Origin: Bacteroidia bacterium
GTDB taxonomy: Bacteria > Bacteroidota > Bacteroidia > AKYH767-A > OLB10
Assembly (NCBI GenBank): GCA_016788165.1
Contig: JAEUTH010000029.1
Coordinates: 1-64,000, forward strand
DNA: 64,000 bases
Direction: 5' to 3'
The notes under the pieces are model-generated. The model saw only the letters and a program-made list of their open reading frames with translations. It ran no database searches and was not told the origin of the DNA. This document shows, in pieces, positions 31,501-64,000 of this stretch. Every line of letters starts with the position of its first letter. Position 1 is the first letter of the stretch. Made by a program: the position numbers and the translations under genes.

Positions 31501-34500
31501 CTGTACCACCATTAACTGTATTTACAATACTTCCATCGGCACTGTTGTTACACAAAGGCATAGTTGGAGTCAGGCTACAAGTTAATGCCGCTGGGTTAAC
31601 CAAAACAGTACTACAAGAAGAAGTACATGCATTGTCATCAGTTATGGTAACGGTATAGGAACCGGCACATAAACCGGTAGCTGTTTGCGTGGTTTGTCCA
31701 TCACTCCATAAATATTGATATAAACCGGTACCACCGTTAACAACTGCGGTGGCAAAACCATTACAATCCGTTGTGCATAATGGATCTGATTTACTTACGC
31801 TGCAACTTAATGAAGCAGGTTCGGTTACTACCACTATATCCGTATTCATACAACCATTAACATCAGTAACGGTTACCTGATAACTACCGGCAGCTAATCC
31901 TGTTGCGGTTTGGTTGGTTTGTCCATTGCTCCATAAATAAGTATATGGTGTGTTGCCACCGGATGGATTTGCAGTTGCTGTACCTGTATTTCCTCCATTA
32001 CATAAAACAGGCGTACTTGATGTAGTTAAAATTAAGGCTCCAGATTGATTTATGGTAACACTATCTATATATGTACAATTGTTTTGGTCGGTAACTGTAA
32101 CTGTATAAACACCGGCTGCAAGATTAACAGCCGTTTGATTTGTTTGACCATCACTCCATAGATATGAGTAAGATGGTGTGCCACCTGTTGGATTAATTTT
32201 AGCCGAACCGTTATTACCTCCACTGCATGCCACATTTACAACATTGCTAAATGTTGCACTAAGTAAATTGGGTTGCATAACTTCTATTGAATCTTGAGCA
32301 GTACAACCGATACTATCAGTTATGGTTATTGTATAAACTCCTGCACATAGCGCTGACGCTGTTGTTGTGGTTTGTCCATTGCTCCATAGATAACTGTAAG
32401 GTGCTGTGCCTCCAATTACATTTGTTATAATTCCTGTTCCATCGCAGTTTCCGAAACAAGTAGCGTCTGTATTCGAAACCGTAAAAATTACAGCAGTAGA
32501 GCCATTGATTGTGGTTTCGCAAGATGATGTACAACCATTTGCATCTGAAACCGTAACAGTATAATTGCCTGGTGCCAAATTACTTATCGATTGATCTGTG
32601 GCACCATTGCTCCATGTAAAACTATAACCCGGAGAGCCTCCACCTGGTAATGCAGATGCTACGCCATTGTTTAATCCACAGGTAGTATGGGTTTCAGATA
32701 TATTACATGATAGCTGCGTTGGTTGAGAAATAGTTCCACTGCATTGTGTTGTACATCCATTAGCATCGGTTATAGTAACATGGTATGTGCCATTTATTAA
32801 TCCGGTAGCAGTTGCCGTGGTTTGTATTGGTGATGTACTCCACATAAATGTATAAGGCGCAACGCCTCCCGTTGGATTTGCAGTTAACGATCCGTTTACA
32901 CCGCCAAAACAAGAAACATTGTTATCAACTGTAACTGTACAACTGAGCGTACTATTGGTTTGACTTATTTCTGCAGAACATGTAGTTGTGCATCCATTGG
33001 CATCGGTAACTGTAGCTGTATAAATACCTGCAGCTAAACCGGTGGCTGTTGCCGTATTTTGAGCTGGCACCGTGTTCCAAACAATTGAATAGGGAATGGT
33101 TCCTCCATTTGCTGTAACGGTTGCTGAGCCAGTGCTACCGCCATTGCACGCAACATCTGTTGAAGTAGTTGAACAACTAAGTAAGGCGGGTTCTGTAATC
33201 GAAACAGCATCTTGTCTGCTACAGCCATTTGCATCTGTTACTGTTACTGTATAGGTGCCTGCCATTAAGCCTGAAGCGGTTTGTGTTGTTTGGCCATTAC
33301 TCCACACAAAAGTATATGCCGAGTTACCTCCTGTTGGATTTGCAGTAGCGCTGCCATTGTTTCCTCCTGCACAACTTACATTTAATGATGCTATTGAAAC
33401 TGTGATTGCAGTTGGCTCTGTAATTATAACAGAACAATTGCTGGTACATCCATCGGCATCGGTAACTGTAGCGATGTAAGTGCCTGCTGTTAAGCCGCTT
33501 ACACTAACCGTTGTTGCTGCTGCCATTGTATTCCATAAGTAAGTGTAAGGCGGGGTTCCTCCGGTTGGGTTAATAGTTGCTGTACCATCATTACCACCAT
33601 TACAAGTTACGTTTGTACTGGTTATATTACAACTTACAGTTAATATGCTACCTAAATTACTGCTACACATGGTAGTACAACCGTTGGCATCGGTAATTAA
33701 AACAGCATAGGAGCCTGGCGCTAAACCAGTAGCTAAAGCTGTTGTTTGTACAGGCAAAGTACTCCAAGCATAAGTGTATGGCGCTGTGCCACCATTGGCA
33801 TTTGCTAAAAGTTTCCCGTTATTAACACCACAAGTTACATTATCAATAATTGAAATATTGCAGGTTAGCAATGTTGGTTCACTAACAGTTGTTATGCAGG
33901 TGGTTGTACAACCTTTCGAGTCAGTAACTGTTACTGTATAGGTACCAGCTGTTAAATAGGGTTCAAATGCATTAATCCCTCCATTGCTCCATAAATAGCT
34001 ATATGGTGGGGTGCCTCCTGCTGCGGTCACATTTGCACTTCCATTTGCTGCACCTTTACAACTGGCATTTGATGATCCCGCGGTACATGTTAATAACGTT
34101 GGTTGCGTTATTACTACATTAACAATAACTACACAACCTTTACTATCGGTTATGGTAAGCTGATGCATACCTGAAGTTAAATTTGAAACATCTTCAGTAG
34201 TTGCACCGTTCGACCACAAATAAGTATAACCGGGGGTTCCTCCGGTTACTGTGATGTTAGCCGATCCATTATTTCCACCATTACAACTTACATTAGTTAA
34301 TGAGGCAAGCGCCAATAGCTGTGGTGGTTGGTTTATATTAATAATGCTACTGCAGGTACAACCGGCTGCATCAGTTACAATTACAGTATAACTACCTGCC
34401 GATAAGCCAAGTACTGTTTTAGTTGTTTTTACCGGACTCGTACTCCATGAATATGTATATGGCGCTACGCCACCTGAAGGATTAGCGGTTGCTGTACCGT

Positions 34501-37500
34501 TTGACTGTCCATAACAAACAACATTGGTTTTGGTGGCCGAACAAGTTAATGCGCTGCTTGGTTGTTCGATTGTTACATTAGCTGTGGCCGTACAACCTTT
34601 ACTATCGGTAACTGTTGCTGTATAAGTTCCTGCAGCAAGTCCGGTTGCAACAAAAGAAGTTTGAACAGGTATTGTATTCCATGAATAAGTATATGCCGGA
34701 GAACCACCTGCGCCCGTAACACATGCTGAACCATTATTGTTGCCCAAACAACTGGCATTGTTTACGCAAGAAATAACAGCAAACAATTGTCCGGGTTCAG
34801 TTACCTGTATAACTCCCACTGTCTGACAACCATTGGCATCGGTTATTGTAACGGTATAAGTGCCGGCAATAAGACCAGAAATAGTTTGTGTAAACGCACC
34901 ATTTGACCACTGATAGCTATATGGTGGTGTGCCGCCTACAGGCTGTGCACTAATACTACCATTGTTACCACCATAGCATGATACATGGGTTACATTGGCA
35001 TCACAAACACAGGCTAAAGGAGCAGGCTCATTTACTACAATGGTTTGAACTAATACGCAACCGGCAGCATCGCTGGCTGTAACAGTATAACTACCTGCGG
35101 TTAATCCACTTATTGTTGCTGTTGTACTTCCATTACTCCAAAGGTAATTAACAGGTGTTGTGCCACCGCTTGGGCTTAGTGTAATGTTTCCGTTAGCCAA
35201 TCCATTACAAGTAACATGTTGAACAATTGGGTTAAGTGCTAAGCTTGCACTTTGTGCTATGGTATAAGTGCATGAAGCACTACAGTTTTGTTGATCGGTG
35301 ATAGTAACCGTATAGGTACCGGCTAACAAATTGTTGTTATTTGTAGTTGTATTTCCATTACTCCAAAGTATGGTGTAGGGAGCTGTTCCGCCAGATGGGG
35401 TAAGTGCTATTGAACCGGTTGCTCCACCATTACAATTGGCATTGGTTACAACACCGTTGCAAGCTAAAGCCATTGGTTGGCTTATAGTAAATGTTTGTGA
35501 AGCTGTACAGCCGCTGTTATCTGTTACTATTACAGTATATGTACCTGCAGCTACGTTCAATAAATTTTTAGTTGTTCGCACTGGATTGGTATTCCAAATG
35601 TAATTGTACCCGCCTGTACCTCCACTTACTGTAAGTGTAACTTTTCCGTTGCTGCCTCCATTACAAGTAACATTTATAACGCTGCCGGTTATCGAAATAG
35701 CCGTAGCCTGACCAACAACAGCTGTTTGTGTTGCTGTGCAGCCATTGGCATCAGTTACTGTTACCGTATAGGTGCCGGCTATTAAATCGGTAGCTGTTTG
35801 ATTTGTGTCGCCATTATTCCATAAGAATGTATATGCCGGTGTACCGCCCGAAGGAGCTGCTGTAATTTCGCCATCGTTTCCACCATTACAACTAACTGCG
35901 TCAACACTAACTGCCACCACAATCGGAGCAGGTTCTGTAATTGCAACCACATGATATTTAATACATCCTGCAGAGTCAATTATTTCGGCAGTATATATAC
36001 CTGCAGGCAGCCCTGTTGCTGTTGGTCCGGTTTGAACGGGTATGGTGTTCCAGCTAATTAAATAAGGAGATCCTACTGTATAAGGAGTACCTCCGTATGG
36101 GTAAACTACAACACTTCCATCAGATAATCCATTACAAGTGACATGCGTTTCGATGGAAGTTGTGTTTAATTGCGGGGGTTGTGTTATTGTAAAGCTCATG
36201 GTTGTATCACAGCCATTGGCATCTATAATTAAGACCGTATGCACACCTGCTGCTAAGCCAAATGCAAAAGCATCTGTTTGACCATCGTCCCATAAATAAG
36301 TGTATCCTGGGGTTCCTCCGGCAACATCAACAAAGGCGGTTCCATCGGCACCGTAGCTACAAGATACATTGGTTTGTTGTGTACCGATTGTTACTTCTGA
36401 TGGTTCAACAATTTCATAGGCCGCTAAATAGGTACAGCCATTAGAATCTGTAATGGTTACTGTATAGGTGCCGCTAACTAGGTTTGTTATATCCTTTGTA
36501 GTTTCGCCATTGCTCCAAACAAATTGGTATGGCAGAATGCCGCCTGAAACAGTTAACTCAACATACCCAAAATTTTCGCCATAACATAAATTATCAGACA
36601 CTATTGCATTGGCTACAATTGGATTAGGTTCGCCCACAAATTTTAATTTGGTACTTACACAACCCGTAGCACTATCAACAACTGTAATGGTATATGTACC
36701 CATTGCTAACCCGGTAAACATACCATTGCTTTGGTAGTTAATTCCATCTATTGAGTAACCATATGGGCCGGTACCTCCTGATGCAATTACCTCAAAAATT
36801 CCGGTAAAGTTTCCGGTGCAGTCAACATCGGTTGAATCAACATCAGAAATAACCGGGTTGGGGTTAACATTTATTGTAACGCTGGTGGTACTGGTACATC
36901 CATTTATATCTGTAACTGTTACCGTATATGAACCAGCCTGTGTAAATTTTGCGCCACGTGTTGTTACACCGTTGGACCAAATATAAGATGCATATCCTAA
37001 ATCTGCCAATACCCTTACGCTATCCCCATCACAAAAGGTGAGCGGGCCATTTGCAGTTAAGTTGGTTGCCGTTGCTTGGTTTTGTATTATTGTTACACTT
37101 GCTGTACCTGTGCAACTATTTGCATCGGTTACTGTTACGGTGAAGTCGCCAGGACTTGAAACTACCAAAGTTTGTGAGGTTGATCCATCATTCCATTGAT
37201 AATTGTTATAACCTGCACCAGCATCAAGTGTAGTATTGAACCCAATACAAAATTGCAAATTACCACTAATTACTGGTGTTGGGTTTGTATGAGCTGTTGT
37301 AGTAACGGCTACTGAAGCTGTACACGTATTATTATCAGTAACTGTTACTGTAAAGCTACTGCTACTGTTTACATTGATGCTTTGTGTGGTGGCACCCGTA
37401 TTCCATAAATAGTTTGCATATCCTGCACCTGCGTCTAATACCGAGCCTGGTGCAACACAAAAATTAAGATTGCCAGATATGGATGGGGTTGGGTTTTGCA

Positions 37501-37840
37501 ATTCTACAACAACAACGCTATCGGAATCAACCACTAAACCTTCGGTAACAGTTACGGTATACGTGCCTGCTGTATTTACAACAATAACCTGGTTGGTTGA
37601 ACCTGTACTCCAAAGATAGGTTGCAGTTGGGCTTCCGTTTGCATCTAATGAGGTATTGCTTCCCGCGCAAAAACTTAAATTACCTAAAATATTAAGTGGG
37701 GCTGGTTTGGCAGTTGTTTCAATACTTTCATGTTTCGTATTATTGGTTTTGCTTATTTCTGATGGCAGTTTTGCCATTAAAAATGTTGAATAAAAAAAAC
37801 CAAGAACGATAAGACATACACTAGCGTAATGTTTTTTCAT
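25589..37840 (-). CDS. Giant SprB-like repetitive adhesin with T9SS tail
   Basis: 4083 residues from MKKHYASVCLIVLGFFYSTFLMA (a signal peptide; an upstream Met adds 18 residues before it). I count 50 modules: 4 Ig/PKD-like (type GNLxFCxGxxTxLDA), 31 SprB-type, 5 Cys-rich Ig-like (type CLISGSSTVCAGSNTLWCAP, about 29760-28690), then 10 SprB-type. SprB modules run about 75 residues, with CNGGNNGSA, then GGTPPYTYLWSNG and ending GTYTVTVTDANGC. After the repeats comes a non-repeat domain of about 180 residues (about 26435-25870), then a type A sorting domain (LTAYPNPTEAIFNLSF, GLYMLQV, end VVIQ). SprB of Flavobacterium johnsoniae is the mobile adhesin of gliding; gliding here is inference. Module DNA differs copy to copy, so repeats are old. 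It may lead an operon of surface proteins. Confidence 0.9.
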   Translation of the reverse strand: MKKHYASVCLIVLGFFYSTFLMAKLPSEISKTNNTKHESIETTAKPAPLNILGNLSFCAGSNTSLDANGSPTATYLWSTGSTNQVIVVNTAGTYTVTVTEGLVVDSDSVVVVELQNPTPSISGNLNFCVAPGSVLDAGAGYANYLWNTGATTQSINVNSSSSFTVTVTDNNTCTASVAVTTTAHTNPTPVISGNLQFCIGFNTTLDAGAGYNNYQWNDGSTSQTLVVSSPGDFTVTVTDANSCTGTASVTIIQNQATATNLTANGPLTFCDGDSVRVLADLGYASYIWSNGVTTRGAKFTQAGSYTVTVTDINGCTSTTSVTINVNPNPVISDVDSTDVDCTGNFTGIFEVIASGGTGPYGYSIDGINYQSNGMFTGLAMGTYTITVVDSATGCVSTKLKFVGEPNPIVANAIVSDNLCYGENFGYVELTVSGGILPYQFVWSNGETTKDITNLVSGTYTVTITDSNGCTYLAAYEIVEPSEVTIGTQQTNVSCSYGADGTAFVDVAGGTPGYTYLWDDGQTDAFAFGLAAGVHTVLIIDANGCDTTMSFTITQPPQLNTTSIETHVTCNGLSDGSVVVYPYGGTPYTVGSPYLISWNTIPVQTGPTATGLPAGIYTAEIIDSAGCIKYHVVAITEPAPIVVAVSVDAVSCNGGNDGEITAAPSGGTPAYTFLWNNGDTNQTATDLIAGTYTVTVTDANGCTATQTAVVGQATAISITGSVINVTCNGGSNGKVTLTVSGGTGGYNYIWNTNPVRTTKNLLNVAAGTYTVIVTDNSGCTASQTFTISQPMALACNGVVTNANCNGGATGSIALTPSGGTAPYTILWSNGNTTTNNNNLLAGTYTVTITDQQNCSASCTYTIAQSASLALNPIVQHVTCNGLANGNITLSPSGGTTPVNYLWSNGSTTATISGLTAGSYTVTASDAAGCVLVQTIVVNEPAPLACVCDANVTHVSCYGGNNGSISAQPVGGTPPYSYQWSNGAFTQTISGLIAGTYTVTITDANGCQTVGVIQVTEPGQLFAVISCVNNASCLGNNNGSACVTGAGGSPAYTYSWNTIPVQTSFVATGLAAGTYTATVTDSKGCTATANVTIEQPSSALTCSATKTNVVCYGQSNGTATANPSGGVAPYTYSWSTSPVKTTKTVLGLSAGSYTVIVTDAAGCTCSSIININQPPQLLALASLTNVSCNGGNNGSANITVTGGTPGYTYLWSNGATTEDVSNLTSGMHQLTITDSKGCVVIVNVVITQPTLLTCTAGSSNASCKGAANGSANVTAAGGTPPYSYLWSNGGINAFEPYLTAGTYTVTVTDSKGCTTTCITTVSEPTLLTCNISIIDNVTCGVNNGKLLANANGGTAPYTYAWSTLPVQTTALATGLAPGSYAVLITDANGCTTMCSSNLGSILTVSCNITSTNVTCNGGNDGTATINPTGGTPPYTYLWNTMAAATTVSVSGLTAGTYIATVTDADGCTSNCSVIITEPTAITVSIASLNVSCAGGNNGSATANPTGGNSAYTFVWSNGQTTQTASGLMAGTYTVTVTDANGCSRQDAVSITEPALLSCSTTSTDVACNGGSTGSATVTANGGTIPYSIVWNTVPAQNTATATGLAAGIYTATVTDANGCTTTCSAEISQTNSTLSCTVTVDNNVSCFGGVNGSLTANPTGGVAPYTFMWSTSPIQTTATATGLINGTYHVTITDANGCTTQCSGTISQPTQLSCNISETHTTCGLNNGVASALPGGGSPGYSFTWSNGATDQSISNLAPGNYTVTVSDANGCTSSCETTINGSTAVIFTVSNTDATCFGNCDGTGIITNVIGGTAPYSYLWSNGQTTTTASALCAGVYTITITDSIGCTAQDSIEVMQPNLLSATFSNVVNVACSGGNNGSAKINPTGGTPSYSYLWSDGQTNQTAVNLAAGVYTVTVTDQNNCTYIDSVTINQSGALILTTSSTPVLCNGGNTGTATANPSGGNTPYTYLWSNGQTNQTATGLAAGSYQVTVTDVNGCMNTDIVVVTEPASLSCSVSKSDPLCTTDCNGFATAVVNGGTGLYQYLWSDGQTTQTATGLCAGSYTVTITDDNACTSSCSTVLVNPAALTCSLTPTMPLCNNSADGSIVNTVNGGTAPYTYLWNNGATTQNLTNITAGTYTATVTDQNGCTSSCSVAVVAPAQLNVTIPSSTNANCGLNNGSATASANGGITPYVYLWSNSQAGPNLINVGAGTYTVTVTDANNCSATSSITITSTTSLDGTISGTNPGCNGGNNGTATIIVTGGDGNYTYSWSTTPVQTNQTATGLSAGIYYVMVTDGSGCTVVDSITLVNASALSCNVTTTPGGCGTSTGTASANATGGTAPLSYLWNNGSTAQSQSGLTGGTYTVTITDANGCTSSCSGVVSGGPAIVNFFMDMTKPSCAGGTDGFICIPVINGGTPPYTYLWNDGSTNSCLNNLGVGVYTVTITDANGCTLSKNRAVIEPPVLTCSTSVIANANCNACNGVAKVDVFGGTPIYNRVWNTSPVQTTAIATGLCAGTYTVTVTDRKGCTTTCTVTVPGTNTLACSITATNNNCAGGNSGQATVAVTGNTGFTETYLWSNGETTATITNLASGVYTVTVTSSSGCTTSCTTTITEPAALSCNILVLRQPTCTVCKGRLRAVPTGGVAPYTFVWNTIPAGTNAVASNLCAGSYTCTITDANGCTTQCTIQLTNQAGPECSISGNTGFCTGSSTQLCAAPNAGYLWSNGATVQCITVNTGGTYTVTVTDVNGCTNSCSTLITEYQAPSCLITGPDSIVAGNFATYCAPSGMQAYLWSNGATDQCINVSVAGTYTVTITSNEGCVSVCSKTLVLISPTACLITGSQVICDGSTTNWCAPIGMTAYLWSTGETTQCVNVGSAGTYTVTITDNNALTSSCSLTLTVNNLPSCLISGSSTVCAGSNTLWCAPSGMSSYLWSTGETTQCINASVMGLYTVTTTDNSGCSSSCSKTLTVLDAPVCTIVQNGTFCANVATPQLCATFGMAAYIWSSGETTRCIEVASPGTYTVTITNGDGCTSSCSWTVNPGTPITDIIVTKTNVSCNGGDNGTSCANTIVGGSAPYTYLWSNGQTTVCATGLSTGLYTVTVTDINGCTNTKRTNITQPATLLSCSTQLLNNASCSNCNGSASVTATGGTAGYSYSWNTLPIQTTQTATGLCAGVYLVTTTDASGCSVSCSITVGGTSAISCTVNTTDASCNGGADGTASVTPSGGLAPYTYLWSNGATTQTISGLAAGAYAVTVTSAEGCTTQCNGTVSEPAAIGLSFNSSDVTCNGGNNGSATAVVNPNLGTETYLWSNGATTATINNLTSGTYTVTVTTQQGCVVTDDVVIDEPTALTCSVSTSAASCGLNNGSASVTPVGGTPGYTYLWSNGNTGVSITNLTAGTYTVTVTDANGCTSQCSGTVSATGAISLSIGKTKVTCFGGSNGTATANPSGSTPPYTYLWSTGQTTKVATGLVAGTYTVTVTSNSGCTASGSVTVLQSSPVIATVTSQSNVSCFGGNNGSVTVLGSGGNAGLHTYLWNTGATTQTLSGRTAGTYTVTVTDSQGCTGTLSVTITQPTQLLANATSTNALCNGTATGSVSAAPTGGTPAYTFNWSNGSSTATVNNLAAGTYTVTVTDANACTATQSVVVAQPTTIANITANATNNVLCNGACNGSIVLNAVTGGTAPYTYLWNNGNTTSNPAQLCAGTYTVTVADANGCTITASFGISQPNALTASTSQTNASSCNNDDGTASVTPTGGTPAYSYLWNNSATSAAISDLTAGVYTVTVTDANGCTTTQSLTITQPAYVCSTFVSGHKETYYAPLGCLNCDTLFDHVDTQFATVFPSGLTVGCNTGFTINLTTAAAVKAFLPSAPSNAALTQNYIDPAASPLDNGLASQMVALALTINFDLADPNFAPTSTVNFRDLVVDSVGPWYGYTVQQIFDEANKQLGGCTGSIAITKSELSSIISRINSSWNLGIKRNNTLTCPPNTCSKMDVSFDESDETFFALTAYPNPTEAIFNLSFKTTYATEYRINMIDMKGSQVINEGHVSHAGANELIYNFENLKPGLYMLQVTIGNEAKTIRVVIQ

Positions 37841-38079
37841 ATTATTGATATTTAATTTTAATACTGAACTATCGCTTTTTAAACAAGACAACAAGCCAAC
37901 ACATACTTTATTAAAGAATGTTAATTGACTACAAATTCAACGTGTTTTATGATTTAGGATAGTTTTTTTTAGGGGTAATATGTAAAAATGTTAATTGGGT
38001 GCAGCAATCTGCAAAATAAAAATTAAAATACCAACACCTTGTTAATTACGATTAAATCTATAAAAGCTGTAAAACTAAA

Positions 38080-49700: not shown

Positions 49701-49757
49701 TTTGTTTGGTAAATATTCATATTTTAGGCGCTTCAAGCCTTGGTAAAGTATTTTAAA

Positions 49758-52115
49758 ATGCATCGGTTTATCGCATTATGTTTCTTTTATATGCCGTTAT
49801 TTTTGCAAGCACAGCACAATACGGCAGTTATTGACAATGCATTAACCAGCAGTAACGAATATGGTTCGGGTAATGTAAACAACTATACATCGGGCGGCCA
49901 AACCTGGTATATAACCTGGGATGCAACTTATGTTTATGTGCACTTAGTTAATGCCAATGTAAGTGAGTTTGGTATTATGTATTTTGATATTAACCCGATT
50001 GCACCGGTAAATGGTGGCAATAACACCAATGGCAGCATTATGGGGTTACCCGGTTTCGACAATTTAACGCCCAACTTGCCCATGCGTGCCGATGCAGCTA
50101 TTGTGTTTAAAGACAACCTGCGTGGAGTTTATGCAGCCAATGGCTCGGGTGGCTGGAATGTTGCCAGTTTTGGTGCCGGTGCTTTTAGCCTCACCCCAAG
50201 CGATATTACAGCTAACTGGTATGCAACCGGCAGCAATAACCGCGAGTTAAAAATTAGCTGGAATCAACTAACAGCAGGTGCCGGCATACCGGCATCGTTC
50301 AATTGGTTTGGCTATTGTAGTTACAACTGCAGCAACACCTGCGGAGGGATGTATGGCGCAGTACCTAATGCCAACCCAGGAGGTACTTTTGCTATGGGCA
50401 GCACGCCTGATTGTGTGCGTTATTTTACAGTTAGCAGTACAGCAAATGGCAGTAGTACAAACCCTACATCGCGCGATAGTTATACGCACTTAGGGGGTAG
50501 TATTACAAACTTTGGCGATATTGTTTGCTACGATTTTACAATGAATTCTCCCGGCCAGGTTATTACTCGTTTAACAGGGCCGGGGTTTAAAGATTGGAAC
50601 ATTAATGGCACCTTGCTGGTAAATGCAGGCCAAATATATTTTGGGGCTTACAACGTTTTTTATGGGGTTGCCGATTATGGACTTACTACCATTAATAACA
50701 TTGTAATGACCGGTGGCGAATTAAACTTAGACTACACTACCTCAACCACCCTGGTTTTAGGAAACATTACTTTAACAGGCGGCCTATTTTATTTGGGCGA
50801 CAGAACATTTGCAGGGCATGGCGATTTAGAATTGCGCGGCAACTGGTTTCAAAGCACGGGCTTTTTCGGCATAAACCACAAAACCGTTTACTTTAGAGGC
50901 AACACACTGCAAACCATTGCCGGAAATGGCACACTGTTTCCGTATGTCGAAATTAATAATGCAGCAGGGGTTACCATACTATCGGGCAATCAAACCATAC
51001 AAGATACTTTGTACCTGCTAAATGGTATGCTCACATTGGGCAATAATCAGCTCACTATTACAGGCTTAAACGGTCAAACACCCACATCAACCGGAGGTAT
51101 TACTTACACCAACCCCAGCTCATTTATTGTAACTGATGGTAATGGCGTTTTAAGGCAGAACGATATTGGCACCGCGCGTACCGGTTCAATATTATTTCCG
51201 ATTGGCAATAGCAGTACCAGTTACCGTCCTTTAACTTTAAACAATAGCGGCACCAATGATAATTTTGCAGCACGCGTGTTTAATAATGTTTACAGTGGAG
51301 GCAATCAAGGGGTAGGCACTACTTTTACAACAAACTATGTTAACCGCACCTGGGACGTAAGCGAAACAGTAGCCGGAGGTTCAACATTAACTGCAACTTT
51401 CGAGTATGCTGCTGTTGATGAACTGGTGCTTTTTAACCGTAACCTATGTGGTGTAGCCACACACAATGGCAGTGCCTGGGTTTTAACGCAAACAACAGGG
51501 CCGGTTGCAGGCAGTAATCCATATACACGAACAACTACTGTAAATACTACCGGCCACTTTACCATTACCAGCGATTTAATTCCACTACCAATCCAATGGC
51601 TATCATTTGAAGTAACCAAACAGCAAACCAATGCTACATTACAATGGGCTGTTCTAAACCAAAATAATGCAAGTCATTATGAGATACAAAGAAGCTTAAC
51701 CGGAAATTTGTTTGAACCTATTGGGATAGTTACGGCAAACCCAAACGGTTATTACACCTATTCCGACAACATAAGCAAACGCTCGAATGAAATAATTTAC
51801 TATCGCATTAAACAGTACGACTTTAATGGCAACTATACATACAGCATGGTTAAATCAATTGCGAACAAACTTCAAAGCCCGCTTTTAATATTTCCCAATC
51901 CGGCTTATGATGTGCTGGCCATTAAACATCCCAAAATTGGGCAGGCTGCTTTAACCGTTTATAACAGCAATGGCCAACTTTGTTATTCACTACAAAGCGT
52001 TTTTGATTCTGATCAAACTGAAATTAAAATCAACCACTTAATAAGCGGTTTATATACCATACAACTTACTACGCAATCAGGCATGGTTTACCAAAACCGT
52101 TTTATTAAGCGCTGA
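49758..52115 (+). CDS. T9SS type A cargo protein, perhaps carbohydrate-related
   Basis: 785 residues from MHRFIALCFFYMPLFLQAQ, a signal peptide; an ATG six codons upstream is less likely. Residues 20-230 form a beta domain (NNYTSGGQTWYITWDATYVYVHLVNANV, GIMYFDINPIAPV, LKISWNQLTAGAGIPASFNWFGYC) with the look of a CBM9- or DOMON-type sandwich, but I cannot assign it firmly. The middle (about 260-480) is repetitive beta structure. Near 615-700 is the fibronectin-like domain common before sorting tails (PLPIQWLSFEVTKQQTNATLQWAV). The tail is LIFPNPAYDVLAI with SGLYTIQLT and end RFIKR. It lies 17 bases before the amylase gene, so a shared role in starch use is likely but inferred. Confidence 0.75.
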   Translation: MHRFIALCFFYMPLFLQAQHNTAVIDNALTSSNEYGSGNVNNYTSGGQTWYITWDATYVYVHLVNANVSEFGIMYFDINPIAPVNGGNNTNGSIMGLPGFDNLTPNLPMRADAAIVFKDNLRGVYAANGSGGWNVASFGAGAFSLTPSDITANWYATGSNNRELKISWNQLTAGAGIPASFNWFGYCSYNCSNTCGGMYGAVPNANPGGTFAMGSTPDCVRYFTVSSTANGSSTNPTSRDSYTHLGGSITNFGDIVCYDFTMNSPGQVITRLTGPGFKDWNINGTLLVNAGQIYFGAYNVFYGVADYGLTTINNIVMTGGELNLDYTTSTTLVLGNITLTGGLFYLGDRTFAGHGDLELRGNWFQSTGFFGINHKTVYFRGNTLQTIAGNGTLFPYVEINNAAGVTILSGNQTIQDTLYLLNGMLTLGNNQLTITGLNGQTPTSTGGITYTNPSSFIVTDGNGVLRQNDIGTARTGSILFPIGNSSTSYRPLTLNNSGTNDNFAARVFNNVYSGGNQGVGTTFTTNYVNRTWDVSETVAGGSTLTATFEYAAVDELVLFNRNLCGVATHNGSAWVLTQTTGPVAGSNPYTRTTTVNTTGHFTITSDLIPLPIQWLSFEVTKQQTNATLQWAVLNQNNASHYEIQRSLTGNLFEPIGIVTANPNGYYTYSDNISKRSNEIIYYRIKQYDFNGNYTYSMVKSIANKLQSPLLIFPNPAYDVLAIKHPKIGQAALTVYNSNGQLCYSLQSVFDSDQTEIKINHLISGLYTIQLTTQSGMVYQNRFIKR

Positions 52116-52132
52116 TTAAAACACCATTCAGC

Positions 52133-54814
52133 ATGAAATGTTTTTTTTCGTTAACCATAGCCTTATACGCAGCTTGTTTTTCACAGTTGTCAGCTCAAGA
52201 CTTTATGTTACAAGGCTGGTACTGGGATTATCCCAAAACGGCACAAGGAGCCATGTGGGCCGATACCATGGCCAACCGTGCTGCCGAGTGGGGCAAGGCC
52301 GGTTTTAATATGATTTGGTGCCCACCTATGAGCATGGCAGCATCGGGCAATGGCAGCAACGGATACGACATTAAGGATTTGTTTAATGTGGGCGGAGGTG
52401 GCATCAGTTCCAACACAGGTTTTGGTAATAAAGCACGCATACAAAATATGATGCAGGCATTTAGTAAACATAACCTGATTGCAGTAGGCGATATGATATA
52501 CAACCACCGCGATGGAGGTTCGTTACAGGATAACCCGGCAGTTGCCGGATGGATTAAAAACTACAACCTTACCAAACATAACAATGGCGATGTATGTTAC
52601 CCCAGCGATAGGTTTCGCAGTTATATAAATATTGGAGGCAATACGGGGCGTGGCGCAGGCACATATTATTTTAGAGTACGGTCGGCATCGCAAAGCAATA
52701 GCTACTTCGGAAAGCCCTATCGCTTTGTGGTGCGCAGCCTTAAAATAAACAGCAATGCCAGTGGACCCATGAATGAAACTGCTAATAACGGTGGTGGCCT
52801 TTGCGCACAAGGTAACGACAGTGTTGCACTTGGCCGCACGGTTATTGCCTCTATCGACAATGGCGGCTGTGGTATTGATGAGTTTAAACTGGTTTTAGAT
52901 ACCAGTATGTTTTACAATGCAAGCGATAGATTAACTATTACCCTGGCTAACGACAATGGTGACTACAGCGACCACTTTTTATATAGCGTTTATTACGATG
53001 CTAATGGTGCCGAGTTAAAAGACACCGTTATGTATCAAACCAGCACCAATTGGGCTAACATGCAAAGCAGCCGTGGTCAGATGGACTACACATACTTTAA
53101 ACCCAATGGTAACCCTACATGCCTTTGTGGCGATTGGGACGGCATGTTGTTTTTTTACGATTATGACCATTCCGAAACCAAAACCCGCGATACACTTTTT
53201 GCTTATACCAAATGGATGTGGGATAGTATTGGCGTTAAAGGTTTTAGAGTTGATGCCGTAAAAAACTTTGCACCGCTGTTTGCTGCTCAAACTATTAACT
53301 ACTTACATAGTAACGGTTATATCCCATCGGTGTACGTTGGCGAATTTTATGATTATAACCCACAAAGTTTAAAAAGTTGGGTTGATAATGTGAAAGCTGC
53401 CATGACACCGGCAGCACAACAAACTATTAATCCACGTTTGTTTGATTTTGCTTTACAGGGATCGCTTAAAGAAGCTTGTGATAATACAGGTTATGATGTG
53501 CGGAATGTTTTTAACAACGGCATGGTAGATGGTGCTGGCGCATCGGGCTTTAATGTAGTTTCATTTGTAAACAATCACGACTTTAGAAACACCTCACAAA
53601 GCTGTGATGTAGATCCGCTTTTAGCTTATGCATACATACTTACCAATAATGCCGTGGGTTTGCCTTGTGTTTATTACCCCGATTACTATCTCAATGCCGG
53701 TAGTTATAAAAAAGCGATTGATGATTTAATGGACGTACATAAAAAATTTATTCATAACACATCGTTTCGCGAATACCTAAACCGTTTCAACACACCCTTT
53801 GCTTCTAATTTTATACAAGGCAACAGCGATAAAAGTTTGATTTATCAGCTTAGTGGTGGCGGCAGTGCAAGTTGTATAGCCAATAAAGATGTAATAGTGG
53901 CTATTAACTTTGGCAACACCACTTTAAAAGTTGACCACCAAATAAATACAGGCAATCCATTTCACAGCAATGTGGGCGATACGTTAAACGACCTGTTTGG
54001 TAACTCCAATTTTCCATACGCCATTGTAAATGGAAATGCACAAATTTATATCGAGCTGCCTCCACGAAGTTACAGTGTTTGGGCAAATGTACCAGCACCA
54101 TCAACTCCAATAATTTCTGTTACAGGTAATAGTACAATTTGTAAGGGTGATACTGTTTATTTAAGCACAACATCACATGCTTGTAACACCATTCAATGGT
54201 ATCACAATGGACAGCCTTTACCGGGTCAAAACCAAACAAATTTGCCGGTAACTCAACAAGGTATTTACACTGTTGAGTTAAGCTATTATGGTAATAATGC
54301 AAAAACTTCTGCCGGTGTAAATATTGTCGTTAATCCCCAGCCCGTAATTATTACAGCCAGCAGCGGTGTACTATCAGCGCCATTGGGCGGCTCATACCAA
54401 TGGTGGTTTAGCCCTAACGGAAACTCCTTTACTTCAATACCGGCTGCCAATGCTGTCAGCTATCAGGCAACAGCTACCGGTTTTTACTACGTACATTTTA
54501 CAGATGCAAACGGTTGCAGCGATACCAGTAATCACCTATATGTTGGTTTTACAGGTATCGCACAAAATACATATAACACTATCACGTTAACTCCCAATCC
54601 ATCAACACAAATAATTACATTAACTAACCTAAGCGCCAAAAGCATAACGCAAGTTACCATTTACAACACATTAGGAGTTGAAGTAATACATCACCTGATA
54701 CAAGAGAAAACCGAAAATGTCCTTTTAAACATAGCGCAACTGCCAGCAGGTATATACTTCGTTAAGGTAAAAAAAGGCGGTAAACAAACCTTGCTTTCGT
54801 TTATAAAAAATTAA
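52133..54814 (+). CDS. Secreted GH13 alpha-amylase with large domain-B insert and T9SS tail
   Basis: 893 residues, signal peptide MKCFFSLTIALYAACFSQLSAQ. GH13 regions: I GDMIYNHRDGG (Asp120, Asn124, His125), II GFRVDAVKNF (nucleophile Asp374), III YVGEFYDY (acid/base Glu404), IV FVNNHDFRN (Asp483). All three catalytic residues are present, so it should cut alpha-1,4 bonds of starch or glycogen. Region I to the nucleophile spans about 250 residues, against roughly 80-100 in ordinary alpha-amylases; the extra residues (about 150-320) are beta-rich with GGNTGRGAGTYYFRV and several Cys. After the barrel come an Ig-like segment (TGNSTICKGDTVYLS), an Asn/Ser-rich domain and a T9SS tail (LTPNPSTQIITL, AGIYFVKVKKGG). 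T9SS export to the surface or medium is expected. Confidence 0.9.
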   Translation: MKCFFSLTIALYAACFSQLSAQDFMLQGWYWDYPKTAQGAMWADTMANRAAEWGKAGFNMIWCPPMSMAASGNGSNGYDIKDLFNVGGGGISSNTGFGNKARIQNMMQAFSKHNLIAVGDMIYNHRDGGSLQDNPAVAGWIKNYNLTKHNNGDVCYPSDRFRSYINIGGNTGRGAGTYYFRVRSASQSNSYFGKPYRFVVRSLKINSNASGPMNETANNGGGLCAQGNDSVALGRTVIASIDNGGCGIDEFKLVLDTSMFYNASDRLTITLANDNGDYSDHFLYSVYYDANGAELKDTVMYQTSTNWANMQSSRGQMDYTYFKPNGNPTCLCGDWDGMLFFYDYDHSETKTRDTLFAYTKWMWDSIGVKGFRVDAVKNFAPLFAAQTINYLHSNGYIPSVYVGEFYDYNPQSLKSWVDNVKAAMTPAAQQTINPRLFDFALQGSLKEACDNTGYDVRNVFNNGMVDGAGASGFNVVSFVNNHDFRNTSQSCDVDPLLAYAYILTNNAVGLPCVYYPDYYLNAGSYKKAIDDLMDVHKKFIHNTSFREYLNRFNTPFASNFIQGNSDKSLIYQLSGGGSASCIANKDVIVAINFGNTTLKVDHQINTGNPFHSNVGDTLNDLFGNSNFPYAIVNGNAQIYIELPPRSYSVWANVPAPSTPIISVTGNSTICKGDTVYLSTTSHACNTIQWYHNGQPLPGQNQTNLPVTQQGIYTVELSYYGNNAKTSAGVNIVVNPQPVIITASSGVLSAPLGGSYQWWFSPNGNSFTSIPAANAVSYQATATGFYYVHFTDANGCSDTSNHLYVGFTGIAQNTYNTITLTPNPSTQIITLTNLSAKSITQVTIYNTLGVEVIHHLIQEKTENVLLNIAQLPAGIYFVKVKKGGKQTLLSFIKN

Positions 54815-55133: not shown

Positions 55134-57554
55134 ATGAAACAATTTATCCTCACAACAGCCATAAGCGTGATGCTGGTAAGTTGCAGTTAAAACACAAAAA
55201 CCGGGGAAACAGGCAAGAGCACATCTGAAAATTCAAATGGCTTTAATGGCGAGATAAATGTTGATGTGCGCAATTCGAAAGCCGACTGGGGCCCATTTAC
55301 ACGTAAACAAGCGCCCGAGGGGTCGCCTAATATTTTATTTATCCTTTATGATGATACCGGCTTAGCCACCTGGTCGCCTTATGGTGGTCGTATTAATATG
55401 CCTACTTTGGATAAATTAGCTGCCGATGGTTTAACCTATACACAATGGCATACTGTAGCATTATGTTCGCCAACACGCTCCTGCATACTTACAGGCCGCA
55501 ATCACAATCAAAACGGCATGGGTTGCATAACCGAGGGTGCTAACGGATTTCCTGGCTACAGTTGTCAACTACCAAAAGCATGTGCTACCATGGCACAAAT
55601 TTTAAACGACAACGGTTGGAGCACATTTTGGATAGGCAAAAACCACAATGTCCCTGAATCCGATCTATCGGCAGGTGCAAATAAAAGTGGATGGCCTTGT
55701 CAACAAGGATTTGACAGGTTTTATGGTTTCATTGGTGGCGAAACTAATCAGTTTTATCCAGACCTGACAGAACACAACCATGCAATTGAGCCACCATATG
55801 GTCCCGAAGCAGGCTATCATTTATCGAAGGATTTGGCCGACCAAGCCATACGGATGATTAGCGATCAGAAATCAGCCAACCCGTCAAAACCTTGGTTTAT
55901 GTGGTATTGCCCAGGGGCTAATCATGCACCACATCAGGCTCCGGCCGATTTTATTGCTAAATATAAAGGTATGTTTGACGATGGCTATGATGCCTATCGT
56001 AAATGGGTATTGCCTCGTATGATTGAAAAAGGAATTTAACCCAAAAACACCAGTTTAACTGAGTTTAATCCCATGTCGGCCGATCAGGCAGTACCCGGTG
56101 ACCAAGTACGTCCGTGGAATACATTGTCGGCTGATGAGAAAAAACTATTCTCACGTTTATGTGAGGTTTACGCTGCATTTTCCGAATATACCGATGTACA
56201 AATAGGTCGTATCATTGACCATTTGAAGGCAAGCGGTCAATACGAAAACACAGTTATTTTATACGCTGCTGATAACGGTGCATCGGGCGAAGGCAGCCCT
56301 AATGGTTCGGTAAATGAGAATAAATTTTTTAATGGTTTTCCGGATGAGTTATCTGAAAACATGAAGCTGATAAATGAATTGGGGGGGCCCAATACTTATG
56401 AGCATTATCCAACTGGGTGGGCAGCAGCATTTTCTACCCCTTTCAAAATGTTTAAGCGTTATTCTAATTATTCAGGTGGCACGTCAGACCCATTGGTTAT
56501 TTCATGGCCTAAAGGGATAAAAGCTAAAGGGCAAATACGCAACCAATACCACCATGCCGTTGATATAGTTCCTACACTACTTGAAATTTGCAAAGTAGAA
56601 ATGCCGCAAGAATACCGTGGTGTAAAACAAACGCCATTAGCAGGAGTATCTATGAAATATTCGTTTGATGCGAAGGCTGACGATCCTACACAAAAACATG
56701 TGCAGTATTACACGATGTTAGGCACAAGGGCTATTTGGCAGGATGGATGGAAGGCCGTAGCGGTTCATGCACCTTTGTCGGATAAAGGCAATTTCGATAA
56801 AGATAAATGGGAGCTGTATCATACCGATGTTGACAGAGCTGAGTCGAAAGACCTTGCCAAAGAAAACCCCGAAAAATTAGAAGCATTAAAAAAACTGTAC
56901 GATGAAGAAGCTCGTAAAAACAATGCTTATCCACTTGATGACAGAACGGCTACACAATTGCTAACTATAGAACGTCCTATGGAAGAAAAACCAACCGATA
57001 GTTACACCTACTATCCCCATGCAAGCCAGGTGCCCGAAGCTGTTGCAGTAAATGTGCGTGGCAAGTCCTATAAAATTATTTCTAATGTTGATTTAAGTAC
57101 AAATGCATCGGGTGTAATATTTGCACATGGCTCGCGCTTTGGCGGCCATACGCTATTTATTAAAGACCACAAATTGTATTATGTCTATAATTTCTTAGGC
57201 ATCAAACAACAACAATTGGTTTCAGGTGTGTTAAAGCCCGGCAAATACACCATTGGCGTTGAATTTGCGAAAGAAAAGGCAGGAGAACATGGCGAATCTA
57301 TCGGCCAAGCAAAGCTGTTTGTAAACAATGTTGAAGTAGCCCAAAGTGAAATGACAGCACAGGTTGGTAAGTTTACTTTAGTTGGCGATGGTTTATGTGT
57401 AGGCTACGATAGTGGCGACCCTGTGAGCAAATTATATACCTCTGAATCAAGCAAGTTTAAAGGTGGTACCATACATTTTGTTACGGTAAACACAGGCAAG
57501 GAAACATATTCAAATTTAGCTGCCGAAGCACAACGTGCATTAAGTATGCACTAA
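55134..57554 (+). pseudogene. Arylsulfatase-type lipoprotein gene with two in-frame TAA codons
   Basis: One frame of 806 codons runs from ATG 55134 to the stop at 57552-57554, broken by TAA at 55188-55190 (codon 19) and TAA at 56037-56039 (codon 302). The first 18 codons are a lipoprotein signal with lipobox (MKQFILTTAISVMLVSCS); the first stop falls one residue after the lipid-binding Cys. The body is a family S1 sulfatase: GSPNILFILYDDTGLATWSPYGG (metal Asp pair), the formylglycine motif CSPTR (Cys111), TGRNHNQNGM, WFMWYCPGANHAPH, and later AADNGASGEGSPNG and HHAVDIVPTLLEICKV. The C-terminal beta domain is typical of large arylsulfatases. No frameshift or lost catalytic motif was seen, so decay is recent, or the stops are read through or are sequence errors. 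Confidence 0.8.
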
Positions 57555-58856: not shown

Positions 58857-61022
58857 ATGAAAAATATTTTATTGATATTGGCTTTGTTACATCAAACCGT
58901 ATTCGCACAAAACAACTGCGATGTTGCCATACGCAAATTGCTGCGTCAGCCTGAAACAACAAACAGTACCAAACCCATTCCCATATTAGTACAGGGCAAT
59001 CCTGATAAAATAAAAACACTTACCGAAGCTGCCAATGGTTTGTTCAAATATGCAGCCGGCAATATTTCATCAATAAATTTGCCGGCAAATGCCATTGCAA
59101 ACTTTGCCGGTAACCCGGCTGTTATACGTATGGAAAGCCGCAGTCCCCGCATGCAATTGCTTAACGATACTATGCGCGTTAATAATAACATCAACGCTAT
59201 ACAACAAGGGTTACCACCACTTGCACAACCTTTTGATGGCAGTGGTATTTTATGCGGCTTTATTGATGCCGGTATTGATTTTAATCATCCCGATTTTAAA
59301 GACAGCAATGGCAATACACGTGTGGCCTGGCTATGGGATCATAAAAAGCCTGTAGGCGCCAATACACCGGCCGCATTTGGCTACGGGCAAGAGTGGGATA
59401 GTACAGCCATTAACGCAGGCCAATGCACTCAAAATACCGCTTTGGCTTATGGCCATGGTTCGTTTTCGGCAGGCATAACCGCTGGCAATGGCTTGGCAAC
59501 AGGTTTTAACCAAGGCTGTGCACCTAAAGCTGATTTATTAGTGGTTAATTACGATTTTGATGCAAGCCCTGGTATTCCCAATGCCATTGCCGATGGTATA
59601 AATTACATGTTTACCAAGGCCGATGCCTTAGGCAAACCGTGTGTTATAAACCTAAGCCTGGGCGATTTATATGGAAGTTTTGACGGAAAAGATTTAGAGG
59701 CTCAAGCCATTGATAATATGTTGCATGCAAAACCAGGCCGCTTAATTGTTGCTGCTGCAGGTAACTGGGGTGGTCAAAAAGCACATTTAAGTTACCAGGT
59801 AAATGCCGATACCAATTGGACCTGGTTTAAGTACGACCCCGCTTTTGGTCAACTGTATATTGAATTGTATGGCGACTCGGCCGATATGGTTAACCTTAAT
59901 TTTGCATTAGGTGCCGATGCAAACACAACGGCTGCATCGTTTTTAGGCAGTACGGCATTTACTAAGGTTACACAAATACCATTGAGCGGCACTTACAAAA
60001 CTATTGCCGGTTTGCCGGGCGATACCGTTTTTTATGATGTAGATAAGTTTAACGGTGTTTATGCGCTATATATAAATATCATCACCCAAAACCCCACATA
60101 TTTTTGGCGATTAATGACTACAGGCAGTGGCACATTTGGCTTGCGCAACTATTTATTTACAGCCGGCTTGCCATCAGGCATGGTATCCGATAATTTGCCA
60201 TCGGCATCAATAGTACCTAACATTATTCATTACCGTTTACCTGATTCGCTTGCATCGCTAAGCAATAGCTTTAATTGTTTAGATGATGTGGTTTCAGTAG
60301 GTAATTATGTAAACATGAACAGCAATTACGACTGCCAAAATGTGTTACGCTTTAATCCGGTAAGCCCTGTTGGCGATTTAGCTCCCAATTCAAGTGTAGG
60401 CCCTACACGCGATGGCCGCCAAAAGCCCGACATTAGTGCCACAGGTAATTATACCATGGCACCCTTACCCATGGTTTTTGTAAATGATGTTGCCTGGCAA
60501 CAATTACCAAAAATGAATGCCGGCTGCTATCATTATGTAGCCGGTGGTACTTCGGCAGCAGCACCCGTAGTAGCAGGCATTGGCGCACTTTATTTGCAAA
60601 AAAACCCCACAGCCACAGCAGCTCAGTTTAGGCAACATATTATTTGTGCCGCCAAGCAAGATAGTATTACAGGCACTGCGCTACCCAATTACCGATGGGG
60701 CTATGGTAAAGCCGATGGCTTTAAAACGCTTATCAACTGCGTAAACGGCATTAACGAAGTTGATATACCGCATACCGTTTACCCCAATCCATTTTCGCAT
60801 GCAACTACGCTTACTTTGCATGGTGCATTAAACACACAAACAATTACAGTGCAAATAGCTGATGTAATGGGCAAAGTAGTTGCACTAATTAAACAACAAG
60901 CTTTAGGAGGCGATGTAAATACCATTACCATTAAACGAAATGGATTATCAGCAGGAATATATTTTTATAAAGCCATGCAATCAAATAAGATTTTGGCACA
61001 TGGTAAGCTGGTTTTACAATAA
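58857..61022 (+). CDS. Subtilisin-like serine peptidase (S8) with T9SS tail
   Basis: 721 residues, signal peptide MKNILLILALLHQTVFAQ. The catalytic triad is Asp137 (GFIDAGIDFNHPDF), His200 (AYGHGSFSAGITAG) and Ser566 (GGTSAAAPVVAGIGAL); the oxyanion Asn sits in VAAAGNWGG. Between His and Ser are about 365 residues, some 150 more than in subtilisin, including a beta-rich insert (about 305-445). The tail is a type A sorting domain (HTVYPNPFSHATTLTL, AGIYFYKAMQSNK). Expected to be exported by T9SS and to degrade proteins outside the cell. It has its own terminator, shared with the convergent gene. Confidence 0.9.
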   Translation: MKNILLILALLHQTVFAQNNCDVAIRKLLRQPETTNSTKPIPILVQGNPDKIKTLTEAANGLFKYAAGNISSINLPANAIANFAGNPAVIRMESRSPRMQLLNDTMRVNNNINAIQQGLPPLAQPFDGSGILCGFIDAGIDFNHPDFKDSNGNTRVAWLWDHKKPVGANTPAAFGYGQEWDSTAINAGQCTQNTALAYGHGSFSAGITAGNGLATGFNQGCAPKADLLVVNYDFDASPGIPNAIADGINYMFTKADALGKPCVINLSLGDLYGSFDGKDLEAQAIDNMLHAKPGRLIVAAAGNWGGQKAHLSYQVNADTNWTWFKYDPAFGQLYIELYGDSADMVNLNFALGADANTTAASFLGSTAFTKVTQIPLSGTYKTIAGLPGDTVFYDVDKFNGVYALYINIITQNPTYFWRLMTTGSGTFGLRNYLFTAGLPSGMVSDNLPSASIVPNIIHYRLPDSLASLSNSFNCLDDVVSVGNYVNMNSNYDCQNVLRFNPVSPVGDLAPNSSVGPTRDGRQKPDISATGNYTMAPLPMVFVNDVAWQQLPKMNAGCYHYVAGGTSAAAPVVAGIGALYLQKNPTATAAQFRQHIICAAKQDSITGTALPNYRWGYGKADGFKTLINCVNGINEVDIPHTVYPNPFSHATTLTLHGALNTQTITVQIADVMGKVVALIKQQALGGDVNTITIKRNGLSAGIYFYKAMQSNKILAHGKLVLQ

Positions 61023-61040
61023 GCCATAACCATAACACAC

Positions 61041-61075
61041 AAAAAGCGGCCTGAAGGTTTTATAGGCCGCTTTTT
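61041..61075. terminator. Bidirectional terminator between convergent genes
   Basis: 12-bp perfect stem (AAAAAGCGGCCT with AGGCCGCTTTTT), 11-base loop. It has a T-run on both strands, and lies 19 bases after the subtilase stop, so it can serve both the subtilase and the gene ending at 61161. Confidence 0.85.
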
Positions 61076-61117
61076 CAATATTCCTGTTTTCGCTCTTACT
61101 TCCGACTTACACAACCT

Positions 61118-61166
61118 CTCCCATTTCACCGCTCACATCTTACATCTCACATTTCACCGCTCACTC
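61118..61166 (-). repeat. Heptanucleotide repeat at the stop of a T9SS gene, 7 units
   Basis: Seven 7-base units in plus-strand register (CTCACAT, CTTACAT, TTCACCG types), running over the stop codon into the non-coding side. Looser copies may extend to about 61093. Confidence 0.65.
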
Positions 61167-62654
61167 CTTCACAAACCTGCCTGTATATATTGTATCGCCT
61201 TGTTGCAAATGCAATACGTATAAGCCCGGTGTGAGTGTGCTAATATCAAAGGTTGATGAGTTGGTATTTTGTATTAGATGCGCTTTACCTAAAACATCAT
61301 ATATAGTAACTGTAAACGGTTTGTTTGTTAATTGTAAATTATCAATTGTTAATTGATTGCTTGCCGGGTTGGGGTAAACCAACAATTTATTTTTGGGTAG
61401 AGGCTCTGCAATGGCTGTTAAGGTATCACATGCACTGCCCGGCAGGGAGCCTAATTCATACAAGGGTATGTATGGTAAATCACTATTCATGCCATTAGGT
61501 ATGTTAATACTACCTGCCGCAGGGTTGCAGGCCTTGCCTGCACTATCTGGATTATTAATTACACTCATAAGAATTGAAGCCGAACCGCTTACGGAATAAA
61601 TTTTACCATCGGGTGCTGCCTGCATGTGGGCGTATGCATGGCGATTAATGCCAAAGTTTATAGAGTCAATGGTGTCCACTACTACAGCGCTTGCCTGAAT
61701 ATTGGCAGCGGTTAAATCGTATTGTAACAGTTTATCATAAATGGCTGCGTATAAATAGCGGCCGCCCGGTGCCACCTCGCAAAAGCCCGAAAATATGGCC
61801 CCCGGCATATAATGTGTAATGGTAACGGTTTGCGGATTGGCGTATAAGCCAGTGCAACGGTCGAAATCGTAAATATCAATAAACCGTACATTGGGGTAAT
61901 TGTAAAAAACCCTAAAGCAGGCCATTTTATTTGTTAAAGCACTGTAGCGCATACTGTTAAAACCACCACAGGCCACAGGGCCTATGGTTTGCGTAAAAGG
62001 CCCGGCTATGCCTGTAGGGCTAATTAAAAAACGGTAAAACACAGGTTGTGTAACATCCCTTACTACTACCCACCAATCGCGCCCATTGCCATGCTTTACA
62101 GTAAAAATACCATGGCCCAAAAGGGTATTTTGAATAACGTTGTTTTTAGCAATAACAGCACCATGGCCATTATTTAAGGTTTTATCAATTACACTGTAAT
62201 ATAGTTTGTCAGGGCCGCCATCAAAGGTGCCATTAGCGCATGGAAAATAAAGCGAATCTAAAGAGTAATGAAATATATAAATTTTATTGCTATCGCCCGG
62301 GTAGGGTATAAAAACCGCAGCCTGATAAAAACGCAAACCATGGTTTAAGTCTGGCCATAACGGACTGGGGCTTAACGAATCGCCATTTTGTATTTTTACA
62401 TGATTGCTGTTGTAAATGGCAACGCCATTTGAATAATACAGCAAGCTGCTATCCGTATTGCCTATGGCTGCACTGGTCTCTGTAAAATGTGCAGTTGCAC
62501 CCGTAAGCGGTTGTATGTTAAGGGTGCCTGTGGTAAAATCAAACATATTGTGGCCGGCAGGCCCAATGCCTACTACCCATTGCACAGGTGTGTGTTGTGC
62601 ATGTAACGTTACATAACCCAAGCATAGCAATAATAATAAATAGTACTTTTTCAT
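61161..62654 (-). CDS. T9SS type A cargo protein, beta-propeller
   Basis: 497 residues, signal peptide MKKYYLLLLLCLGYVTLHAQ. Residues about 25-400 are blade-like beta repeats (AAIGNTDSSLLYYSNGVAIYNSNHVKIQNGDSLSPSP; LYYSVIDKTLNNGHGAVIAKN; GIFTVKHGNGRDWWVVVRD; FCEVAPGGRYLYAAIYDKLLQYDL; MQAAPDGKIYSVSGSASILM), a type of surface propeller frequent in Bacteroidota without known activity. The last 70 residues are the sorting domain (LLVYPNPASNQLTIDNLQLT, YDVLGK, TPGLYVLHLQQGD, end GRFVKE), nearly identical to the partial gene at 1-210. It precedes the convergent terminator and follows the gene at 62671 by 16 bases. Confidence 0.8.
   Translation of the reverse strand: MKKYYLLLLLCLGYVTLHAQHTPVQWVVGIGPAGHNMFDFTTGTLNIQPLTGATAHFTETSAAIGNTDSSLLYYSNGVAIYNSNHVKIQNGDSLSPSPLWPDLNHGLRFYQAAVFIPYPGDSNKIYIFHYSLDSLYFPCANGTFDGGPDKLYYSVIDKTLNNGHGAVIAKNNVIQNTLLGHGIFTVKHGNGRDWWVVVRDVTQPVFYRFLISPTGIAGPFTQTIGPVACGGFNSMRYSALTNKMACFRVFYNYPNVRFIDIYDFDRCTGLYANPQTVTITHYMPGAIFSGFCEVAPGGRYLYAAIYDKLLQYDLTAANIQASAVVVDTIDSINFGINRHAYAHMQAAPDGKIYSVSGSASILMSVINNPDSAGKACNPAAGSINIPNGMNSDLPYIPLYELGSLPGSACDTLTAIAEPLPKNKLLVYPNPASNQLTIDNLQLTNKPFTVTIYDVLGKAHLIQNTNSSTFDISTLTPGLYVLHLQQGDTIYTGRFVKE
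61321..61355 (-). repeat. Coding heptanucleotide repeat, 5 units
   Basis: Inverted copy of the repeat at 16-50, in the sorting domain; on the minus strand it differs from it by one base (CAAACAA for CAAATAA). Confidence 0.7.
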
Positions 62655-62670
62655 CGGAGCGGCTATTAAA

Positions 62671-64000
62671 TTATTTAACTACTTCAATTTTCTGATGCAA
62701 AATAACACCATCGCTTAACGAAACCAGTTTTATCTGATATATACCTTGTGGTAAATCGGCTACAGGTATTGTAAGTACAGTATGTTTGTTACCTGTAATG
62801 TATTTCAATTTATTGCCCAACATATCATATAAAGCAAGGGCATATTGCATTATAGTTGGCGGCAAATACAATGTTATAAAGTCAGTAGCGGGGTTGGGGT
62901 AACAAAATAGGGTTGCTGATGTTTTTTCTGTAACCGGCTCTTTATCACTCATGCTCCATCGGCTGCCGGTATTGCAGGGTGTATTATCAAAAGCTGCATT
63001 GGAGTTAATAAGTAAAAACAAGCTACGCGCAGCCAATACAGCAGGGCCACCATAGGTTATACATTGCTGTGCTATGCTTAATATGGTAATGCTATCGGCA
63101 ATGGTATAAGCATTATTACCCTTGGCTGCATATTGGGCATAAAGTGCATTTATGGTTTTTTGATTGGCTGTATAAAGGCCATTGGTAACAATACCTTGAT
63201 TTAAGGCTGCGGCTGCATGGGCCTGGGTTACATGGTAAACTTTAGCTGTATTACTAATACTATCATTCATAACACCAATGGCAATAATTTGCGCCTGAAT
63301 GGTTGCATTAGCCCCTACTAAAATAGCACTGTCGGTTGCAGTTAAATTGTTACCGGCAAGCAACCCTAAGTTGGTTTGGTATTGTAAACTCAGGTTCAGT
63401 AAAACAGAGTCGTTAAAAGCACGGCTATGGGTTAATGCAGCAAGCGTGCTCACATTTATTTTATATATGAAATTTACACTTTCTAACTTACCTAAATCGG
63501 TTAAGGCAACACTGTCAAAATACTGCTGCACAGGCTGGCTGGCAAGCAGGGCGGGGTTTTGGTCAATATACTGATAGGTATTGCGGTTAAGTACATAATG
63601 GCCTAAGGTTCCATTTTCATTTTCAGTACTGCTATCGGCTTGGGCAACTGCTTGCTCGGCCAACGCTATTTCATCGGCAGGCGGTGTTGGACTTATTAAA
63701 ATACATTGAGCCGGAGTGCCACTCTGGAAATTTATCAAGTTTGTTGATTTCAGTACCGGATTGTACACATTAGCAGGGGCAGTAAGGGTATGCACTGTAA
63801 ATTCAGATTGTGGTGGATTGGCACCATTATACACCCCTGCCGCACCGTGTGGGCTTGCAAATAAGCTGTTATTTAAACTCCAAATATTGCCACGGTGTGT
63901 TTGTATGCCTATGGCACCTGAAGGGAAATTAATGTATAAGCCATAATTATTGGCTTCTATTTCATTGCCCATAAAGTTTTGGGGGCTACTGCAGTCTTCG
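62671..64000 (-). CDS. T9SS cargo protein, 5' end outside the window
   Basis: At least 442 residues. The frame stays open to the window edge, beyond the first Met at 63972, with residues CSSPQNF before it, so the true start is outside. The visible part (NYGLYINFPSGAIGIQTHRGNIW) looks like a parallel beta-helix of NosD type in its first 50 residues. The middle is helical and Ala/Gln-rich (LAEQAVAQADSSTENENGTLG; IQAQIIAIGVMNDS). The tail is a type A sorting domain (LFCYPNPATDFITLYL, YDMLGNKLKY, QGIYQIKLVSL, end KIEVVK). Function unknown. It is directly followed by the propeller gene on the same strand. Confidence 0.75.
   Translation of the reverse strand, partial: EDCSSPQNFMGNEIEANNYGLYINFPSGAIGIQTHRGNIWSLNNSLFASPHGAAGVYNGANPPQSEFTVHTLTAPANVYNPVLKSTNLINFQSGTPAQCILISPTPPADEIALAEQAVAQADSSTENENGTLGHYVLNRNTYQYIDQNPALLASQPVQQYFDSVALTDLGKLESVNFIYKINVSTLAALTHSRAFNDSVLLNLSLQYQTNLGLLAGNNLTATDSAILVGANATIQAQIIAIGVMNDSISNTAKVYHVTQAHAAAALNQGIVTNGLYTANQKTINALYAQYAAKGNNAYTIADSITILSIAQQCITYGGPAVLAARSLFLLINSNAAFDNTPCNTGSRWSMSDKEPVTEKTSATLFCYPNPATDFITLYLPPTIMQYALALYDMLGNKLKYITGNKHTVLTIPVADLPQGIYQIKLVSLSDGVILHQKIEVVK

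Follow-up and report, generated by a model that had tools for sequence, protein, structure and literature searches.

An arylsulfatase lipoprotein gene with two in-frame TAA codons, probably a recent pseudogene, in a Bacteroidia bacterium

The sulfatase frame and its neighbourhood

The window, which is the whole 64,000-nucleotide stretch of DNA analysed in this study, contains a single reading frame of 807 codons at positions 55134–57554. On translation, TAA was found in this frame only at codon 19, at codon 302 and at the end, where the terminal TAA ends at 57554. The features of the frame are as follows.

55134–57554, + strand: PAS-like S1-superfamily arylsulfatase lipoprotein gene with two in-frame TAA codons, probable recent pseudogene (single frame; PF00884 over both halves; orthologues at most 81% identical; PDB 1hdh)
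55134–55187, + strand: predicted signal peptide with lipobox (MKQFILTTAISVMLVSC-S), the 18 codons ahead of stop 1 (translation; lipobox-like N-termini in the sister sequence L028 and others)
55188–55190, + strand: in-frame stop 1, TAA, codon 19; AAA (Lys) in this column in L028 (translation, alignment)
55191–56036, + strand: N-terminal half with the catalytic DD, CSPTR (formylglycine site), GKNH and ANHAP, all intact (translation, PF00884, PAS alignment)
56037–56039, + strand: in-frame stop 2, TAA, codon 302; L, I, V or M in 81 of 81 distinct orthologues (orthologue alignment)
56040–57551, + strand: C-terminal half with the metal-binding AADNG motif and the PFK lysine, intact (translation, PF00884, PAS alignment)

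The lipobox (VSC) was in the same frame as CSPTR and both sulfatase halves, and stop 1 directly followed the lipobox Cys and its next residue (C-S-stop in the alignment), as a first-pass annotation of the sequence had described. The two halves matched PF00884 consecutively, the N-terminal half at profile positions 1–200 and the C-terminal half at 200–298, and a profile search of the genome gave a score of 195 bits over the whole sulfatase region. The annotation's statement that there was no frameshift over about 800 codons also held. Among solved structures, arylsulfatase PAS of Pseudomonas aeruginosa (PDB 1hdh) ranked first or nearly first for both halves, with E of about 5e-27 and 1e-28. The frame aligned with PAS at the formylglycine motif, the active-site acidic pair, the DNG motif and the motifs with the lysine and the histidine (CSPTR, YDDTG, GKNH, ANHAP, AADNG, and PFK). 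Different from PAS, it possessed an N-terminal lipobox, a longer C-terminal part and the two TAA interruptions. With the full PF00884 profile, a C-x-P-x-R motif and the active-site residues, the gene belongs to the S1 (formylglycine) sulfatases.

The 3.34-Mb genome contained eight PF00884 matches, of which only 55134–57554 had an internal stop. In addition, three candidate maturation proteins with an FGE-sulfatase domain (PF03781, a domain-level match) were encoded in the genome, all without stops.

Clusters of genes for T9SS-sorted (Por_Secre_tail) proteins flanked the sulfatase at window positions 49740–54814 and 58857–63972. The upstream neighbour of the sulfatase was T9SS-sorted and partially matched alpha-amylase, those downstream were an unassigned protein and a T9SS-sorted subtilase, and the farther genes encoded a NUDIX protein and further T9SS-sorted proteins. 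The neighbouring genes did not form a recognisable polysaccharide-utilisation operon. Elsewhere in the window, a very long ORF of 4101 amino acid residues was found on the minus strand (25589–37894).

Orthologues at the two stop positions

A scan of public genomes identified 80 orthologous loci, whose identities to the window gene ranged from 64 to 81% over the C-terminal half. The column of stop 2 was occupied by L in 54, I in 12, V in 10, and M in 4 of these loci, in keeping with the first-pass annotation, which had expected a hydrophobic residue before Pro and had suggested a family alignment at the stops. At the codon level, codon 302 was mostly Leu (TTA or TTG). The orthologues in two further genomes, G002 (69%) and G040 (67%), were also intact. 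Because the G002 orthologue (L010) and L051 are apparently the same record and were counted once, the set comprised 81 distinct sequences. Stop 2 was found in none of the 81, and the shared stop by which recoding or readthrough would be recognised was therefore absent.

The intact Bacteroidota orthologues L017 to L041 (e.g., Flavobacterium, L028) resembled the window gene most closely, with 73–81% identity over the C-terminal half and equal length and motifs, but they had sense codons at both stop positions. The alignment at stop 1 was loose because signal regions vary; in the sister sequence L028 (clade support 0.97), this column held Lys (AAA), so that C-N-K stood opposite C-S-stop. At codons 19 and 302, premature stops thus stand where functional relatives have sense codons, which is the mark of a nonsense pseudogene.

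Among 41 other genomes of the same order that were searched, only two carried an orthologue, and the neighbours of the sulfatase in the window had no genes in common with those at the orthologous loci. Both results fit a dispensable accessory gene, and the sulfatase, with its patchy distribution, behaves as one. No intact close copy was found in the genome. The possibility of a decaying duplicate was rejected, given that no paralogue in the genome exceeded 34% identity. A search of the literature on sulfatase pseudogenes in Bacteroidetes returned nothing relevant.

Constraint on the frame and the age of the loss

Beyond the two stops, the gene showed no sign of decay: there was no frameshift and no raised dN/dS. 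At near-invariant columns, only 2 private changes were found in the window gene, compared with 0–5 in the intact orthologues. In a branch test, the window branch had an omega of 0.019, compared with 0.028 for the other branches; the difference was not significant, and this single-omega test was uninformative because synonymous sites were saturated. It was replaced by a site-class codon model in which the window branch carried a neutral tail. This tail was best estimated at 0 and was bounded above at about 0.02 substitutions per codon, and the log-likelihood dropped by 2.0 at 0.02 and by 7.5 at 0.05 neutral substitutions per codon. The curves of intact control sequences were similar to that of the window gene.

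One neutral unit over the whole gene corresponds to 34 nonsense and 609 missense changes, and the 0.02 limit therefore predicts 0.68 nonsense changes alongside about 12 missense ones. Once a first stop is present, one or more others would follow with a probability of about one half at this limit, and with a lower one if the loss is younger. Since the limit allows about 0.7 nonsense changes, the occurrence of two stops in a gene that is otherwise undamaged is not in itself surprising. Unrelaxed constraint would also be seen in a very young pseudogene; hence the neutral-tail result bounds the age of the loss and does not decide between readings. With the stops as the only sign of loss, the data also leave room for a sequence error or for continued synthesis of the product.

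Origin of the stops

Our preferred interpretation, to which we assign a probability of roughly 0.75, is that the arylsulfatase gene was recently inactivated by nonsense mutation. Two nonsense substitutions to TAA would have arisen in an ordinary gene for a lipoprotein sulfatase that few close relatives carry. As stop 1 sits just past the lipobox, no exported enzyme should be made. Stop 2 leaves the formylglycine site in one fragment and the metal-binding DN and a catalytic lysine in the other, so that neither should be active. Full-length sulfatase is thus probably not made, and the stops probably arose by mutation in the organism and not in the assembly. Recent decay by two point mutations, one of the options in the first-pass annotation, is favoured by the sense codons in relatives, the intact remainder of the gene and the lack of a detected suppressor tRNA or release-factor loss.

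The most serious alternative, though a distinctly less probable one, is that one or both stops are base errors and that the true gene is intact. The assembly is a draft of 46 contigs, and the remainder of the gene looks fully constrained. However, both changes are substitutions and not indels, and random errors would give about 18 missense changes for each nonsense change (609 versus 34 per unit), so that a pair of nonsense errors should be accompanied by dozens of further visible changes. Even at the 0.02 limit, nonsense changes would number two or more with a probability of about 0.15 (Poisson, mean 0.68). Moreover, in a composition scan of sampled stretches that totalled about 784 kb, or about a quarter of the genome, none of the other candidate mid-gene stops was convincing, the leftovers being judged by eye as gene boundaries or non-coding; the sensitivity of the scan to planted stops was 68% for long ORFs, and short genes were missed. 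A true loss, with the first stop as the inactivating event, is thus more likely than two independent nonsense errors without the commoner missense ones.

General recoding of TAA, which the first-pass annotation had considered unlikely, was rejected. TAA was the commonest terminator, ending 211 of the 291 long ORFs that the samples contained, and the gene frames of RF1 and RF2 were open and intact. No suppressor tRNA, i.e., no TTA, CTA or TCA anticodon, was among the 33 tRNAs found by a search in which 150 of 255 candidates were scored at the first-look step and a divergent tRNA could be missed.

Conditional readthrough of the stops, of the kind put forward for certain bacterial in-frame stops (PMC7918605), would yield a low level of full-length sulfatase but is improbable. 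The frame and the catalytic residues are intact and constraint is not relaxed, and in-frame stops with dN/dS below 1 are reported to be widespread in bacterial genes, many of which were argued not to be pseudogenes (PMC7918605). However, two TAA codons in series must both be passed for a full-length product, and the tRNA and release-factor results above apply here as well. The RNA downstream of the stops was unremarkable by folding (z of -1.0 and -0.9). These tests lent no support to readthrough, which could still occur at a low level, and the annotation's suggestion of conditional readthrough gained no positive evidence. The stops analysed in PMC7918605 were inferred to be mostly short-lived, and similar to them, those of the window gene are single-substitution stops in an otherwise constrained gene. 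The former, however, had to be common to at least two species, whereas neither stop of the window gene occurs in any relative, which points to a young private event.

Two further readings are unlikely. That the serial TAA codons form a switch, keeping an exported sulfatase near-silent but recoverable by readthrough or reversion, is very improbable. Least probable of all is a split sulfatase that assembles from two separately translated halves: open frames remain at 55266–56039 (GTG start) and 56073–57554 (ATG start), but the restarted N-terminal half would lack the signal peptide, the metal site is in the C-terminal half, and none of the 81 orthologues was split.

Recent nonsense inactivation therefore best accounts for the locus, and a recently broken sulfatase gene is an ordinary kind of finding. 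The locus would be a clear case of a gene very early in decay, in which the stops are the sole sign of loss. It also illustrates that readthrough need not be invoked whenever an otherwise clean frame holds two nonsense codons: about 0.7 nonsense changes are already expected under neutrality at the age that the data permit.

A lone in-frame TAA was also found at codon 48 of an ArfB-like ribosome-rescue gene in the same genome (L162:1480–1896; G000:C43, about 51259–51675). This stop was detected only by a family search and was missed by the composition scan. The aligned relatives mostly have Glu or Gln at this codon and the remaining frame is open; judged from the sequence, it looks like a second recent nonsense event.
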